From: a virus | Virus record (IMG/VR): IMGVR_UViG_3300046791_000268 | Span: 1-52,599 of that record | Direction: 5' to 3' (one strand) | DNA: 52,599 bases | In this document: positions 1 through 52,506 of the stretch, piece after piece | Numbering within the stretch: the stretch's first letter is position 1 | Layout of the letters: every line of letters starts with the position of its first letter | Translations under genes and position numbers: made by a program | The notes under the pieces: generated by a model | What the model saw: only the letters and a program-made list of their open reading frames with translations | What the model was told of the DNA's origin: nothing | The model's database searches: none

Positions 1-366
1 CCCAGCCATACGGGCCCCCAAACCAGTCACTGCTATGTACGGTGACCACATCCGCTAGGATGGCCGTACACAAGATCGCACTCCGCGGCCACGTAGGCGG
101 TGGCTCGGCGCCCGCTAGCTGACACATCTCCGCACAGTCGGCCTGGCCCTCGTGGTCGCCAGGTTTCGCGCCTGCGTGAATGGCGATCCGCTGGCCTATC
201 ATGGCTTTCGGCGGGGACCAGACCCGGTTCTCTATGTCCTTGCCAGCGTGGGCGATGGCCCAGGCCCAGCAAGCGTGCAACGTCAGTGCCTTCATACGCT
301 ACAGCTTGACAGGTGCCGCCACGTCCGCAAGGCGAAAGTGCAACAAAGATTCAGCCGCGCCATGGT
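1..366. other. Gene-free left end of window
   Basis: Short open frames exist on both strands but none has a ribosome site, promoter or protein-like composition, so no gene is called. The only structure noticed is a degenerate half of the early-region operator at 331-353 (GTGCAAC followed by a right arm ending in TCA), just upstream of the first full operator. If the molecule is circular this stretch joins the integrase upstream region at the right end. Confidence 0.5.
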
Positions 367-8845: not shown

Positions 8846-8889
8846 ACTCATATCCTAGCACGTCACTGAATACGTGCAACAGCTTTTCA
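8846..8889 (-). promoter_or_regulatory. Operator/leaderless promoter 13
   Basis: On the minus strand the operator (8867-8889) has arms TGAAAAGCTG and CACGTATTCA around TTG. The -35 TTGCAC is at 8874-8879, the spacer 16, the -10 TAGGAT at 8852-8857, with 6 nt to the ATG at 8845. Confidence 0.8.
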
Positions 8890-10393: not shown

Positions 10394-10741
10394 ATGCCTA
10401 CCAGCCCCGATATCGACCCCTACAGCCCCTGCCCTGATCCCATCATCGAAAGCACGGGCTATCCTACAGAGGATTTCCTGCAGTGGCTCAGTGTGGCAGA
10501 CGACCACAAAGCCATCATGCGTGCGGTACTCGCCTACTTCAGCGAAGTCGCCTACGGGTCCATCACACGCGTTTACGCTGACAGGGTAAGCCTTGCTACG
10601 GGCGGATGGTCCGGGTGCGAGGATGTGATCGCCTCCCTACACGACAATGTACGCTTTTGGCACGATTGCTGGGAGGAACAGCACCGTGGCGGAAAGTGGG
10701 TCTTTGAAGTCGAGGGCCTACAGCTCCCCGGCAACGATTGA
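10394..10741 (+). CDS. Acidic small protein, 115 aa
   Basis: Unknown. It lies 9 bp after the basic protein gene and is strikingly acidic, so the two products could pair electrostatically (inference). It starts with a Pro-rich segment, followed by a helical globular region with several Trp (near 31, 73, 89 and 93). Its stop TGA is 2 nt before the start of the PP-loop gene, suggesting an operon. Confidence 0.6.
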   Translation: MPTSPDIDPYSPCPDPIIESTGYPTEDFLQWLSVADDHKAIMRAVLAYFSEVAYGSITRVYADRVSLATGGWSGCEDVIASLHDNVRFWHDCWEEQHRGGKWVFEVEGLQLPGND

Positions 10742-10743
10742 GC

Positions 10744-11652
10744 ATGTGTATGGGTAGCCCTCGTGCTGACGCACCCACACAGCCCCGTAAACGTCGCACC
10801 TCCACCCAAGTGGTACGCGCTGAACTAGCCCGGGTTACAGGCCTCCTGCTGCTGAGCCGCAAGCGCATGGAGCGCGTGTCGGCACTTTCGCACGATCGCG
10901 TGATGGTGGGGCTTTCTGGGGGCAAAGACAGCCTTGTCACACTGGACCTGTGCTGTAAGTACATCTCTCATGTAGAAGCCTACTACATGTACTTGGTCCC
11001 CGGCCTAGAGGCGTTCGAGTGTCACGTGGATGCCGCCGCTAAGCGTCACGGTATCAAGGTGCACAAAGTACCGCATTTCGACCTAGCAAGGCTCGTCAGG
11101 CACGCTGTGTTGCGACCGCCTACCAAGGGGTGCAACACGCTACGGATCATGCAATTGCGCGACATTGAGTTTGCGTTGCGCGATCGCACCGGCATCACCT
11201 GGATGGCCATGGGTGAGCGTGCAACGGACAGCTTCAATAGGCGTTTTTACACACGTCGCAATGACGGCATTGACGAACGTGTGCACCGCACTTACCCGAT
11301 ATGGGATTGGTGCGACAGAGACGTATACGGCTACCTACGCGCGCGAGGCATCAAGCCCCCTGACAATCGGGGCTACCAGAAAGCCCGTGTACGCGTCAGT
11401 GGCTTTTCGCTCTCTGGACAGTGTCTATCCTGGCTCAAGGTAGAGCATCCCAGAGATTACAAGCGTGTGCTCCGCGTATTCCCTTACGCTGACAGCGAAA
11501 TCCGCAAGTATGAACTCCGACAAGAAAGCGCACGCGACCAAGATCAAGGCGCTGCAAGACTATGTGCGGGAGTCTATCCCGACACAGAGCCCGACACAGA
11601 GCACGCTTCCCACAGCGAACCAGGTCAGCAAATACCAGACGTTCATCACTGA
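10744..11652 (+). CDS. PAPS-reductase-family PP-loop protein, IbrA/DndC-like
   Basis: The S-G-G-K-D-S signature (about 58-63) is the pyrophosphate-binding PP-loop of the PAPS reductase/ATP pyrophosphatase family. Downstream W-D-W-C-D-R-D-V-Y-G-Y-L matches the conserved region seen in phage-encoded IbrA/DndC-like members. Such enzymes adenylate or transfer sulfur to substrates; in phages they often pair with a ParB-like gene, as here. ATG 10744 is used (TTG 10738 is possible). The last 143 bp overlap the partner gene in another frame. About 302 aa; the substrate is unknown. Confidence 0.75.
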   Translation: MCMGSPRADAPTQPRKRRTSTQVVRAELARVTGLLLLSRKRMERVSALSHDRVMVGLSGGKDSLVTLDLCCKYISHVEAYYMYLVPGLEAFECHVDAAAKRHGIKVHKVPHFDLARLVRHAVLRPPTKGCNTLRIMQLRDIEFALRDRTGITWMAMGERATDSFNRRFYTRRNDGIDERVHRTYPIWDWCDRDVYGYLRARGIKPPDNRGYQKARVRVSGFSLSGQCLSWLKVEHPRDYKRVLRVFPYADSEIRKYELRQESARDQDQGAARLCAGVYPDTEPDTEHASHSEPGQQIPDVHH

Positions 11653-42655: not shown

Positions 42656-43006
42656 ATGTCTGCCACTATCGTAAGCGGCTACTTTCCGGGGCAGTCTCAA
42701 GCGGCAAGCGAAGGCGCCTTGATCGCGGCCGATCTTGTATGTCCGAATGTCTGCATGCTGCAATGCGTTGTCGGCTACAACGCAGGCGCAGGCCTGCTCT
42801 ATGTCCAGCTATTCGACAAGACCACCGCGCCCATCGCTGGTGACGTGCCAGAGATATCCATACCGGTGCCAGGCGGCCGTACGCCGTTCTCCCTGTCTAT
42901 GCCATATGCGTTCACGTTAGGATGCGCGATCGGCATTAGCAGCACTGAGTTTACATACACATCGGGCGGCAACTCGCTCGCCTACGCGGCGACGGTTCAC
43001 CTGTGA
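42656..43006 (+). CDS. Small tail-tip beta protein, 116 aa
   Basis: A beta-rich protein with one Cys-Cys-like pair (C-P-N-V-C) and a Gly/Ser/Thr-rich C-terminus. Size and pattern suit a jelly-roll receptor-binding tip. It overlaps the first tailspike gene as GTGA, so it is translated with it. Confidence 0.55.
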   Translation: MSATIVSGYFPGQSQAASEGALIAADLVCPNVCMLQCVVGYNAGAGLLYVQLFDKTTAPIAGDVPEISIPVPGGRTPFSLSMPYAFTLGCAIGISSTEFTYTSGGNSLAYAATVHL

Positions 43007-44445
43007 GCGGCGAACAGTTTTACGGTGGGCTACGCGTAGGCGCGGCGGGTGCGAGCGCTCCCACGGGCGCGGGCGCAGCCACGCCGCCGCTCACGAGCGC
43101 GCGGACGATTCATGTGGATAGCGCGACGGGCAGTGACAACACCGGCGACGGCTCAAGCGCTAGACCTTGGCAGACCTTGGCCAAAGCGTGGGCCGACCGA
43201 AAGGTATACGACGAGTTGCGTGCTATCTACACGATCCAGCTGCATGGCGTCGGGCCGTACACGATGCCTATCATGATGGGAAGCTATGCCGGTGACGGGG
43301 GTTTTTTTGTGTTGCTGGGTGATCCCAGTGTTGACGTCACTGCTATCAGTGGAACGTTTACGGGCGACGTCAACACGACGACTTTCATAGTGCCTACGTC
43401 TGCAGGGCTTGGCGTGGATACGCACAAGGGAAAGTTTCTCTACATCACTAGCGGCGCATGCGCTGGCGTGCGGAGCACTGTCCTAGCCACGACCGATACA
43501 TCGATCACGGTGCCTCTGACTGACTGGCGAACGACGCTCGGAGCCATAGTCGCAGGCGACACATTTAGCATCAAGACTCCGGGAACTGTCATCAACGTTC
43601 CCACTATTTCGACAGCATCGGGCCAGCCAAACTCAACCTTCATAAACTGCACTGGCGGCGGCGCATATCCTAACGGCCCAAGCGTTGGAGACTCCCCGAC
43701 AAAGCACTGGGTTGTCGGATGTTCCTTCACGGGCGCGGCCCTACGGATGAAGCGCAGCTCCATGATCTTCGCCGGATGCGTGTTCACGCAGCCGTTCCAA
43801 AACTACGGCAGCGAACTACAGATAGGAGGTATTTCAAATGGGTTTGCGGCTGGCGTCGGTGCGGACACTAAGACTGACAAACTTACCGGATATGGCTGCG
43901 CGACCAACTCACAGGTTATAAACGGGATGAATGCTACTGCCGGCATATTTGGACTATACACTTCATCAACAGGCACGTTGTCATGCGGCACCGTAAGCCA
44001 AGCTGACTACATGTTCCTAAATGGCTGTCGGCTGGAAGGCTCTCTGTTCATGAACACTGGGCGCGTAGAAGGCAACGGCGCCTGCCTAAACATATTCAAT
44101 AAGACGATAACACTCCAATCGTTTGCTACGCTGGTCATCAATGGCGGCACGTGGAACTTTGCTGTCACAAGTGGTGAGTGCATCTTAGTCAAGCAAGGTT
44201 CCACGGCAGTTATATCGTTCGGCACCGCGACGGGTGGAACTACTGACGCCGCTAGCGTAGCCATGCGTGCTCTCAGTGGTTCTAAAATCATCATGGTCAA
44301 CAAAGCTCCTACGCTCACTGGCGTAGCAGGCGCAGACATGAAGGCCGACAGCACGGCGGCGATCGCGAACGCGACGCTATCCGCAAACGGTCAAAGCACG
44401 CTCGATGCCGCCACGCAGGCGATCATTATGCGCGTTGCGGCATGA
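43003..44445 (+). CDS. Tailspike with right-handed beta-helix, copy 1, 480 aa
   Basis: It starts with GTG inside the upstream stop. The N-terminal ~95 residues (S-G-E-Q-F-Y-G-G-L-R-V-G-A-A-G ... H-V-D-S-A-T-G-S-D-N-T-G-D-G) are nearly the same as copy 2 and form the attachment domain. The rest has repeated short beta-strands as in pectate-lyase-type helices, so it may bind or degrade polysaccharide. The region 43.6-44.3 kb looks more AT-rich than the surroundings. Confidence 0.7.
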   Translation: MSGEQFYGGLRVGAAGASAPTGAGAATPPLTSARTIHVDSATGSDNTGDGSSARPWQTLAKAWADRKVYDELRAIYTIQLHGVGPYTMPIMMGSYAGDGGFFVLLGDPSVDVTAISGTFTGDVNTTTFIVPTSAGLGVDTHKGKFLYITSGACAGVRSTVLATTDTSITVPLTDWRTTLGAIVAGDTFSIKTPGTVINVPTISTASGQPNSTFINCTGGGAYPNGPSVGDSPTKHWVVGCSFTGAALRMKRSSMIFAGCVFTQPFQNYGSELQIGGISNGFAAGVGADTKTDKLTGYGCATNSQVINGMNATAGIFGLYTSSTGTLSCGTVSQADYMFLNGCRLEGSLFMNTGRVEGNGACLNIFNKTITLQSFATLVINGGTWNFAVTSGECILVKQGSTAVISFGTATGGTTDAASVAMRALSGSKIIMVNKAPTLTGVAGADMKADSTAAIANATLSANGQSTLDAATQAIIMRVAA

Positions 44446-44470
44446 CGCGCTTGGTGGAGGGAACACAGCT

Positions 44471-45931
44471 ATGAGCGGCGAACAGTTTTACGGCGGGCTG
44501 CGCGTAGGCGCAGCGGGCGCGAGCGCTCCTACGGGATCGGGCGCAGCCACGCCGCCACTCACAGCGGCGCGCACGGTCCACGTTGATAGCGCGGCGGGCA
44601 ATGACGCGACGGGCGATGGGTCCGCGGCGCTACCGTTTGCGACGCTTGCGCGTGCGTGGACGGAGCGGCTTACGTATGGCGAGCTACGCGCGAGGCTGAT
44701 TATACAGCTGCATGGCGTGGGTCCATACACTATGCCGGTTATGGGCGCTAGCGTCTGTGGTGACGGCGGTTACCTTCAGGTGTTTGGCGATCCCGCTGTA
44801 GATATCGCGGTGGCCGCTGGAACCTTTACGGGCGACCTAAACACGACCACGTACACACTGCCGACGTCGGCGGGCTTGGGCGTCAACACGCTCAAGAATG
44901 CGTTTCTTGAGATCACGAGTGGCGCGTGCGTGGGCGTACGCTCGAACATCGTACTCAACACAGACGCAAGTATCACGATTCCGTTTCGTGCGTGGCGTGC
45001 GTCGCTAGCTGTAGCTGTTGCGAGCGGCGACACATTCAGAGTATTTCAGCCGGGTACTGTGATCAACTTTGCGGCGGCCGCCACGGGCACGATCGCGCCC
45101 GGCTGCTATGACTGGATCGGCAGCGCTGAATACCCACTGTCGTATGCAAGCGGCGGCGTAGCGCGGCACGGGTTTTACAATCTACAGTTCAGCGGAACAC
45201 AGCTAAGCACGCGAAACGCGGCAGTGCAGTTGATCGGCGTGCGGGCCACTCTAAGCATTGTGTGGTTTGACCGCAGCACAATCAGCGCGGGCGGGCCGAG
45301 CAACGGTGCAACGTGGGGCGTGGGCGCTTCCGCGATTACAAACCTGATATCCTCTTACGGTCTTGTCGATACAGCCTCGACATTCCTGATCGGCAATCGA
45401 TCGATCTTGGCCGGTGTGCTTTGCGTAAAAACTTCACTGAATATCGGCACCGAGATTGCTGGCGAGGGGGACATTGTGTTGCAAAAGGGCGGCCGATATG
45501 AGGGCGGGATCACTCTGACGGGCGGAACCTTCGAAAGCAACGGCGGCGGCAACACGTACACTTATATCCAAGGAACACTAACGATCAACAAAGGCGGCAA
45601 GCTGTATCTGTTTACGGGTACCACCACGACGTCTAAGGCCGTGTTCGCGGTCACGGTCGGAAGCTGCATCGACGTGGCCGACAGCTCGCTGGTAGAGATC
45701 GTCACCACGGGCGGACTGTCAGGCGGCACTACCGATGCTGCCGGTTATGGCATCCGGCTGCGGGCAGGCGGCGGCAGCGTGTTGCTAAACGGCGCGTTTA
45801 CGCTCACAGGCGGCACGCTGAACGCTGACGTAAAGACGGCTGTGGCGGCGGCCACTGCCAACTCGTTCTTTACGGCGGCCAACATCTTCATCAACGACAT
45901 GGGCGGCGCGGGTTTGGTGGCGCGGATATGA
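44471..45931 (+). CDS. Tailspike with right-handed beta-helix, copy 2, 486 aa
   Basis: ATG 44471 is preceded by GGAGGG. The N-terminal domain repeats copy 1 (S-G-E-Q-F-Y-G-G-L-R-V-G-A-A-G). The body is beta-helix-like but differs, and the ends of the two proteins diverge. It is the last gene of the late operon; a bidirectional terminator follows. Confidence 0.7.
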   Translation: MSGEQFYGGLRVGAAGASAPTGSGAATPPLTAARTVHVDSAAGNDATGDGSAALPFATLARAWTERLTYGELRARLIIQLHGVGPYTMPVMGASVCGDGGYLQVFGDPAVDIAVAAGTFTGDLNTTTYTLPTSAGLGVNTLKNAFLEITSGACVGVRSNIVLNTDASITIPFRAWRASLAVAVASGDTFRVFQPGTVINFAAAATGTIAPGCYDWIGSAEYPLSYASGGVARHGFYNLQFSGTQLSTRNAAVQLIGVRATLSIVWFDRSTISAGGPSNGATWGVGASAITNLISSYGLVDTASTFLIGNRSILAGVLCVKTSLNIGTEIAGEGDIVLQKGGRYEGGITLTGGTFESNGGGNTYTYIQGTLTINKGGKLYLFTGTTTTSKAVFAVTVGSCIDVADSSLVEIVTTGGLSGGTTDAAGYGIRLRAGGGSVLLNGAFTLTGGTLNADVKTAVAAATANSFFTAANIFINDMGGAGLVARI

Positions 45932-50897: not shown

Positions 50898-50922
50898 TAT
50901 TTACTGCACAGACGGACGCAGT
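50898..50922 (+). repeat. Integrase arm-type repeat (P arm)
   Basis: ATTTACTGCA followed by CAGACGGACGCAGT. The same repeat occurs at 51140-51163 with two differences. The two copies flank the tRNA-derived core, consistent with integrase arm-binding sites of attP. Each has inverted ACTGC...GCAGT ends. Confidence 0.65.
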
Positions 50923-50969
50923 GAAAACGAGGTGAAACAAAAATGGCTTGTTTTATAGCTAAAAACGAA

Positions 50970-51026
50970 CGACTCCGCATGCTTTGGGAGCATGAGGTCG
51001 CAGGTTCGAATCCTGTCGCCCCGACC
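50970..51026 (+). other. attP core: 3' part of tRNA-Pro(UGG)
   Basis: Anticodon stem CATGC/GCATG with loop TTTGGGA (50978-50994; anticodon TGG), variable region AGGTC, T arm GCAGG-TTCGAAT-CCTGT (51000-51016) and acceptor strand CGCCCCG with discriminator A (51017-51024) match a bacterial tRNA-Pro. The upstream 5' half of the tRNA is absent. This fits the identity segment by which the phage integrates into, and restores, the host tRNA gene. Confidence 0.8.
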
Positions 51027-51031
51027 CGCTG

Positions 51032-51067
51032 AAACCCCGCAAAACGCTCTGTTTTGCGGGGTTTTTT
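51032..51067 (+). terminator. Intrinsic terminator after tRNA fragment
   Basis: A perfect 14-bp stem AAACCCCGCAAAAC (51032-51045) and GTTTTGCGGGGTTT (51051-51064) with loop GCTCT and a T run. It follows the tRNA 3' end directly, as a tRNA terminator would, so it may be part of the host-identity region carried by attP. Confidence 0.8.
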
Positions 51068-51103
51068 GCGTCTGGGCCCCGCTGGCCGTTCCGCCGATGG
51101 GGG

Positions 51104-52459
51104 TCAACTGGCACCCTTTGAGCCCTTTTTGCCCATCGCATTTACTGCACTGACGTACGCAGTTTGGGCCGGACGGGCTTCTGCTGTCTGTGCTGCAGTT
51201 GAAATGGCCCCCGTTCGAGCCTGCAAACGCTGCTTTTGCAGCTGTCTGCGGGATGGTTTGCGCGCGCGCGGCAGGGCCACGGGGGGCAGGGCCATGGGGG
51301 GCAACTTGGCGACCGCGGCGTGTAGCCTGGCCATGTCCGTGTGGCCATAGACCAAGCGGACCATGGCAATGTCTTGGTGGCCCAAAAGCTCCGCGCAATC
51401 TTCGAAGCTGACCCCGGCATTTTTCATCAAACTGCAAAACGTCCGGCGCAGGTCATTGAACGTCAGCGACTTCGGCAGCTCCACGTCCAGATCCTGGCGT
51501 GCGTCGCCTTTCTTGGCGCGCGCCAAGAGACTCGCGCGGGCCCGTTTCCAGTTTGCGCGCAGGTCACGGTTACCCGATCCCCATTCGGTGAACAGCGGCG
51601 TTCCCACGCGCGCATTGCGCATGCGGCGCGTGAACAGCGCTAGCATGACGTCATTGAGCGGCAGTGGCCGCGCGGAGCCATCGGTTTTCAGCTCACGCAC
51701 GACAACGCCACCGCGGACAAGCTCCTCTAACTTCAGCACGCGCTTAACTAGGTCGACATGTTCCCGACAGATGACCAGCAGCTCACGGCGGCGCAGCCCT
51801 AGGTTGACGAGTGTCAAAATATCGTCGCGCCGATCGATCCGATGGCGATCGGGGTTCGAGCTGGTCTCTGCGATCAGCGCTCCGATCCACTCGGGCTTAC
51901 GCAACCATCTGGCCCCGGGCTTGTAGTAACCGCGCTTGCCCTTGGCTCGTTTGAAGCCCTCCACCGTCAACGATTTGGGGTCGCCAGAATAGCCGCCTAC
52001 GGCCTTGGCCAGCTTTGCCGCCTGCCGCAGCACGCGAAGTTCTTTCTGGATCGTGTGGCGTGACGCGTTTTCGGCCAGGCGCGTGTCTGTGTACGCCACC
52101 AGCGTGGGAGCGGGCGGCGTGACATCGATCAGCCGCGTGTCAGGGAGCAACAAGCGCACGAGATGGCGCCCGCGATCCACGTGAAACTGGACGGTTTTGG
52201 GCGCGGCGTTGACGCGTGCGTCATGTTGACCGAGTAGGCCTAGCGCCTCCGCTAGCGTAAGTTCCTGGGCGGTTTGGGTTTGATCGGGCGCAGGTACGGA
52301 CTTGTCGCGTTCGATTTCTCTGGCGGCGTCAAGCGCGGCTTTTCGGTCGGTTTGGTGGGTAGAGGCGGTGTACTTCTTTCCGGCGTAGTCGTAGCCCCAG
52401 AAGTGCCAGACGGCTCCGCGTTGCATGAGTCGCTTTTCGATGGGCGTGCGTTTGAACAA
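51104..52459 (-). CDS. int: Tyrosine-recombinase integrase, 451 aa
   Basis: It has the phage-integrase layout: N-terminal arm-binding part, core-binding SAM-like domain (about 65-155) and catalytic domain. Catalytic candidates are R223 in N-L-G-L-R-R-R-E-L, K258 in L-K-T-D-G-S-A-R, R338 in F-N-D-L-R-R-T, H361 in L-L-G-H and Tyr371 in V-Y-G-H-T. The usual His of the H-x-x-R box is Asn335 here. TTG 52459 is chosen from AGGAGA 6 nt upstream. An arm-type repeat lies in its 3' coding end. A C-terminal Ala/Arg/Pro extension of about 70 aa follows. Confidence 0.9.
   Translation of the reverse strand: MFKRTPIEKRLMQRGAVWHFWGYDYAGKKYTASTHQTDRKAALDAAREIERDKSVPAPDQTQTAQELTLAEALGLLGQHDARVNAAPKTVQFHVDRGRHLVRLLLPDTRLIDVTPPAPTLVAYTDTRLAENASRHTIQKELRVLRQAAKLAKAVGGYSGDPKSLTVEGFKRAKGKRGYYKPGARWLRKPEWIGALIAETSSNPDRHRIDRRDDILTLVNLGLRRRELLVICREHVDLVKRVLKLEELVRGGVVVRELKTDGSARPLPLNDVMLALFTRRMRNARVGTPLFTEWGSGNRDLRANWKRARASLLARAKKGDARQDLDVELPKSLTFNDLRRTFCSLMKNAGVSFEDCAELLGHQDIAMVRLVYGHTDMARLHAAVAKLPPMALPPVALPRARKPSRRQLQKQRLQARTGAISTAAQTAEARPAQTAYVSAVNAMGKKGSKGAS
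51140..51163 (+). repeat. Integrase arm-type repeat (P' arm)
   Basis: ATTTACTGCA followed by CTGACGTACGCAGT, near-identical to the repeat at 50898-50922 and in the same orientation. It lies within the integrase 3' end, so the gene carries the second arm site of its own attP. Confidence 0.65.
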
Positions 52460-52492: not shown

Positions 52493-52506
52493 TTGACATT
52501 TGTCAA
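52493..52506. promoter_or_regulatory. Palindrome TTGACA-N2-TGTCAA upstream of integrase
   Basis: The same perfect arms as at the portal start (19695-19708). It lies 34-47 nt before the integrase start codon, where a repressor could close the int promoter. The recurrence of exact arms at two distant control points suggests a shared regulator. Confidence 0.5.

Follow-up and report, generated by a model that had tools for sequence, protein, structure and literature searches.

A probable tRNA-Pro(UGG) attachment site beside the integrase gene of an environmental contractile-tailed phage

Positions 50899 to 51163 of the virus record analysed here (52,599 bases in full, hereafter the window) very probably constitute the attP site of a temperate, contractile-tailed phage, whose integrase recombines with the tRNA-Pro(UGG) gene of its host. 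This reading draws on a pair of repeats not attributable to chance, the 3' part of a tRNA-Pro(UGG) gene, four hybrid genes built with that part, a terminator, an adjoining tyrosine integrase gene, and the temperate-myovirus genes found on the contig. Counting against it are the lack of a host genome with the exact core and of any relative of the integrase, an Asn in the active site, the dyadic form of the repeats, the incomplete left end of the record, and the lack of a Pfam match for an arm-binding domain.

The contig has a GC content of about 61% and encodes the terminase, portal, head protease, major head protein, sheath and baseplate of a contractile-tailed phage. Judged by sequence, this gene set is of the temperate myovirus type. 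No terminal repeats were present in the 52,599-base record. At the left end, an ORF for an ASCH-like/phrog_3193 protein (2-295, minus strand) has a profile match that halts at 183 of 269 positions. As this ORF is cut by the contig end, the record is incomplete on the left. Closing the contig end-to-end into a circle was considered and rejected: the joint would shorten the ASCH-like ORF (...GYGW-AR-stop), the phrog_3193 match covers only 183 of 269 positions, and terminal repeats are lacking. On the right, the contig extends 140 bp past int and then ends.

Two further regions of the contig were noted. Positions 43003-45931 hold two adjoining ORFs of 480 and 508 aa, in which DNA repeats pair at 42998/44466, 43033/44501 and 43063/44531 (22/24 identical). 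From sequence this looks like a tandem gene duplication; the first ORF has a weak tail-protein match only. A PAPS-reductase-family auxiliary gene lies at 10738-11652 (PF01507, E 7.8e-11), and the ORF after it matches phrog_9353, with weaker matches to ParB-like and methyltransferase families.

The tRNA-Pro fragment and the core

The proposed common core, at 50976-51026 (plus strand), is by homology to tRNA-Pro genes the 3' portion of a tRNA-Pro(UGG). It spans tRNA position ~26 through the acceptor stem, the discriminator A and CC, and the next base is C. With ACC-C in place of ACCA, CCA is not fully encoded by the fragment. Identity to tRNA-Pro genes (phage and plasmid records) is 86-92%. Stretches resembling the fragment are also carried by plasmid and chromid records, and in all four of those that were scanned ARAGORN predicted a tRNA-Pro(tgg) at the matched place. 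The same program found no complete tRNA in the window, and the fragment itself scores 23.9 bits with the Rfam tRNA model, below the 29-bit cut-off. Downstream, at 51032-51064 (plus strand), stands an intrinsic terminator hairpin with a 14-bp perfect stem followed by a T run (-26.7 kcal/mol, z -7.4). A preliminary description of this DNA had placed a tRNA-Pro(UGG) 3' fragment with its terminator at 50970-51067. Both elements are there, and only the start needs correction, by about 6 bp, since the tRNA match begins at 50976.

The tRNA-Pro(UGG) genes of Sphingomonas, Nonomuraea, Variovorax and Persicobacter supplied 5' halves reaching as far as the anticodon loop, to which the phage 3' part was joined in silico. 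ARAGORN predicted a tRNA-Pro(tgg) in 4/4 of these hybrids, whose 5' halves come from donors that are not the host, and a tRNA in 0/4 of the reciprocal joints, made of the phage left part and the donor 3' part. The hybrids rebuild a tRNA and the reciprocals do not, which is the behaviour required of the fragment in a tRNA attP. Without the A of CCA, the rebuilt gene would need CCA addition, or else the host would be one that does not encode CCA.

The anticodon arm, CATGC-TTTGGGA-GCATG (50978-50994, plus strand), forms an inverted repeat around 7 bp, as the cores of tyrosine integrases usually do, and we propose it as the core-type site. The crossover most likely falls in the 7-bp anticodon loop, TTTGGGA, at 50983-50989. 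From this overlap to the midpoints of the flanking repeats described below, the distances are about 75 bp on the left and 165 bp on the right, and the att stretch measures about 265 bp in total. The 53-bp spacer between left repeat and core (50923-50975) is A+T-rich, with a GC content of 35.8%, a value equally low in only about 0.02% of the 53-bp windows of the contig. It is likely to be a bendable segment of an attP arm. No IHF consensus was found at up to 1 mismatch in the attP region, left spacer included. The int ORF points towards the core, and its stop codon is 78 bp away from it.

Repeats and integrase

Two direct 24-bp repeats, 22/24 identical and spaced by 241, enclose the core: the left one, ATTTACTGCACAGACGGACGCAGT, at 50899-50922 (plus strand), is a putative P-arm binding site for Int or an accessory protein, and the right one, ATTTACTGCACTGACGTACGCAGT, at 51140-51163 (plus strand), a putative P'-arm binding site. 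They agree with the near-copies of ATTTACTGCA...GACG.ACGCAGT reported earlier, as does the placing of the second copy within the 3' end of the int gene that follows. There, it overlies codons 433-440 (of 451) in antisense, beyond the region that matches the integrase domain (residues 206-377). No third copy with 3 mismatches or fewer exists in the window (chance expectation 0.00), and when the surrounding 2.1 kb was dinucleotide-shuffled 300 times, no ungapped 24-mer pair within 400 bp scored above 20/24. The pair therefore exceeds chance. A search of viral contigs with the arm-repeat pattern gave no match.

That these repeats are integrase arm sites is plausible: they are direct, they bracket the core at lambda-like distances, as arms should, and copies of them are found nowhere else in the window. 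However, each is an imperfect dyad of the form ACTGC-N10-GCAGT, and the only two zero-mismatch dyads of this form in the whole window (n=2) are the repeats themselves, whereas simple arm sites measure ~10 bp, and those of lambda and L5 are short and non-palindromic. There is hence an appreciable possibility, though we think it less likely than not, that the repeats serve another protein, such as an excisionase, a repressor or an accessory factor, or that they are Int sites arranged as inverted pairs. A broader scheme appears distinctly unlikely to us, namely that the dyadic repeats, with the right one lying in int, represent a non-lambda arm architecture (inverted Int-site pairs, for instance, or sites that a regulator shares with Int), whereby binding at attP would also control expression of int, the integrase being a divergent one with Asn at the first catalytic His.

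The gene int (51104-52459, minus strand) encodes a tyrosine recombinase of 451 aa (PF00589, E 5.6e-12; phrog_1, E 3.2e-36), the phrog_1 integrase profile spanning residues 14-428. Alignment to the solved integrase 6en0 gives R-K-N-R-H-Y: R, K, R, H and Y are present, and an Asn occupies the first His of RKHRH. With this substitution, activity of Int would not be assured. The first catalytic His is known to vary, being less conserved in the IntBPP-1 subgroup and replaced by Tyr in IntDes, according to a survey of tyrosine recombinases (PMC8138268), so that the Asn alone does not imply a dead enzyme. Pfam gave no match for an arm-binding domain in Int, and a single-sequence structure model was uninformative (pLDDT 38.5).

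Recombination at the site could proceed as follows. The integrase (51104-52459) would recombine attP with the host tRNA-Pro(UGG) gene, exchanging strands in the anticodon loop (50983-50989) with the halves of the anticodon stem acting as inverted core-type sites. Its N-terminal part would hold the arm-type sites at both 24-bp repeats, and the A+T-rich left spacer would assist by bending. The phage would bring the tRNA 3' part together with its terminator, such that the host tRNA is rebuilt at attL, beside int, and the displaced 3' part of the host gene would end up at attR.

A perfect 14-bp palindrome, TTGACATTTGTCAA, is present at 52493-52506, 34 bp upstream of the int start codon, and might act as the operator of int, being distinct from that of the early genes. 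The latter belongs to a promoter-operator element composed of a near-palindrome, GATTTAGTGTTGCACTAAATC, with a -35-like TTGCRC, ~16 bp and a TAGAGT-like -10. About 17 copies were seen, at 368, 757, 1042, 1266, 1857, 2785, 3044, 3483, 3810, 4700 and 4963 on the plus strand, and at 8888, 9204, 9544, 12793, 24904 and 25150 on the minus strand. In its strict form the element was found 7 times, versus 0.21 expected, and its pattern had no match in viral contigs. In many copies an ATG lies just ~6-8 bases past the -10 (TAGAGTCTAGACATGGA). These sequences suggest that many early genes are under one repressor and give rise to leaderless mRNAs, and we regard this set as of more interest than the attP itself.

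Prophage junction or attachment site

The preliminary description had recognised in this region the organisation of an attP, and our analysis upholds it: viral genes lie to the left and int to the right, the tRNA gene is represented by a 3' fragment only, and hybrids rebuild tRNA-Pro. We favour attP over attL because a whole tRNA is missing, and over attR because int would then be on the host side, and because the repeats bracket the fragment. Together with the virion genes on the left, this arrangement best fits an attP on phage DNA that is free or circular.

The attR reading calls for closer consideration. It supposes that the 3' tRNA remnant ends one element and that int, to the right, is a host gene or part of another element in tandem. 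At an attR, too, one would expect a displaced 3' part of tRNA-Pro followed by its terminator. Moreover, family matches are almost absent for the genes that adjoin the site on its left (46 to 50.9 kb), and the contig stops 140 bp past int. With such a junction, however, both int and the second repeat should be host-side, whereas the two repeats bracket the fragment. What precedes the fragment is an A+T-rich, phage-like tract and not the 5' half of a tRNA, and no bacterial housekeeping gene was recognised among the tested proteins near the site. We consider an attR-type junction very improbable. As to the viral nature of the genes between 46 and 50.9 kb, the attP call rests on geometry: it argues against a host flank there, while gene content does not exclude one. 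Still less credible is the idea that the fragment plays no part in integration and is either a phage tRNA gene in decay or a piece transduced by chance: tRNA genes do occur in phages, and several mismatches separate the fragment from known genes, but it is cut exactly 5' of the anticodon arm, it retains an intact 3' part, T arm and acceptor arm, which complete tRNAs when joined to foreign 5' halves, and terminator, flanking repeats and int all adjoin it.

If the site is an attP, then its host should carry the matching tRNA gene. The exact 51-bp core was found in 0 of 84,980 GTDB species genomes, a count of exact matches only in a collection that may not include the true host, and obtained with a query that took in the two bases before the anticodon stem and was thus stricter than needed. 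Comparable 3' halves are found across unrelated phyla. The earlier expectation that the site would suggest the host was accordingly disappointed. The exact tRNA-core patterns did not match any viral contig. No relative of the integrase was detected in genomes, viral contigs, phages or plasmids, and none of the terminase in viral contigs. For the sheath, one environmental contig encodes a relative (36%) among viral contigs, and the nearest sheath proteins are those of Thermus, Meiothermus and Myxococcus phages (31-35%). By these sequence comparisons, the virus is without close relatives in the collections searched.

Comparison with known systems

The site is a canonical attP of the anticodon type in a tRNA gene, a well-known arrangement, and is ordinary apart from the virus's lack of close relatives. 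It alters no concept. Its value is that such an attP shows an otherwise orphan environmental myovirus to be temperate, predicts tRNA-Pro UGG as the insertion gene and, after sequencing of a matching genome, the host, and provides with int a candidate pair for vectors in the host group.

In the POP' site of lambda, int is transcribed towards attP, one arm lies at the 3' end of int, the core is between the arms, and no tRNA gene is used. Our site shares the direction of int, a putative arm at its 3' end and the core between putative arms; unlike lambda, it would use a tRNA gene, and an IHF consensus was not found at up to 1 mismatch.

Overlap with int is known in the Myxococcus phage Mx8, where attP is inside intP, crossover itself takes place within int and integration alters the C terminus of Int (PMC6070905). 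Here too, att sequence overlaps the coding sequence of int, but only a putative arm repeat does so, the core being located 78 bp beyond the int stop codon. The tail sheath encoded in the window is 31% identical to that of Mx4, a myxophage different from Mx8.

Among tDNA islands, an attP of ~250 bp containing a tDNA fragment has been described; 2083 of 3919 are anticodon-centred and 3760 of 3919 have a 3' fragment, the anticodon-centred 3' tDNA fragments being the commonest Islander class (PMC4383910). Phages that use tRNA genes typically have a common core of 30-45 bp including the tRNA 3' half, and in mycobacteriophages the cores are flanked by arm-type sites (PMC10865867). Our site departs from Islander class A and from the mycobacteriophage attP by its ACC-C in place of ACCA, and by a single 24-bp dyadic repeat per side, the right one in int. 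In all else compared it resembles them, with a 3' tDNA fragment that restores the target, an attP of ~250 bp, flanking repeats and an adjoining tyrosine integrase (PMC4383910, PMC10865867).
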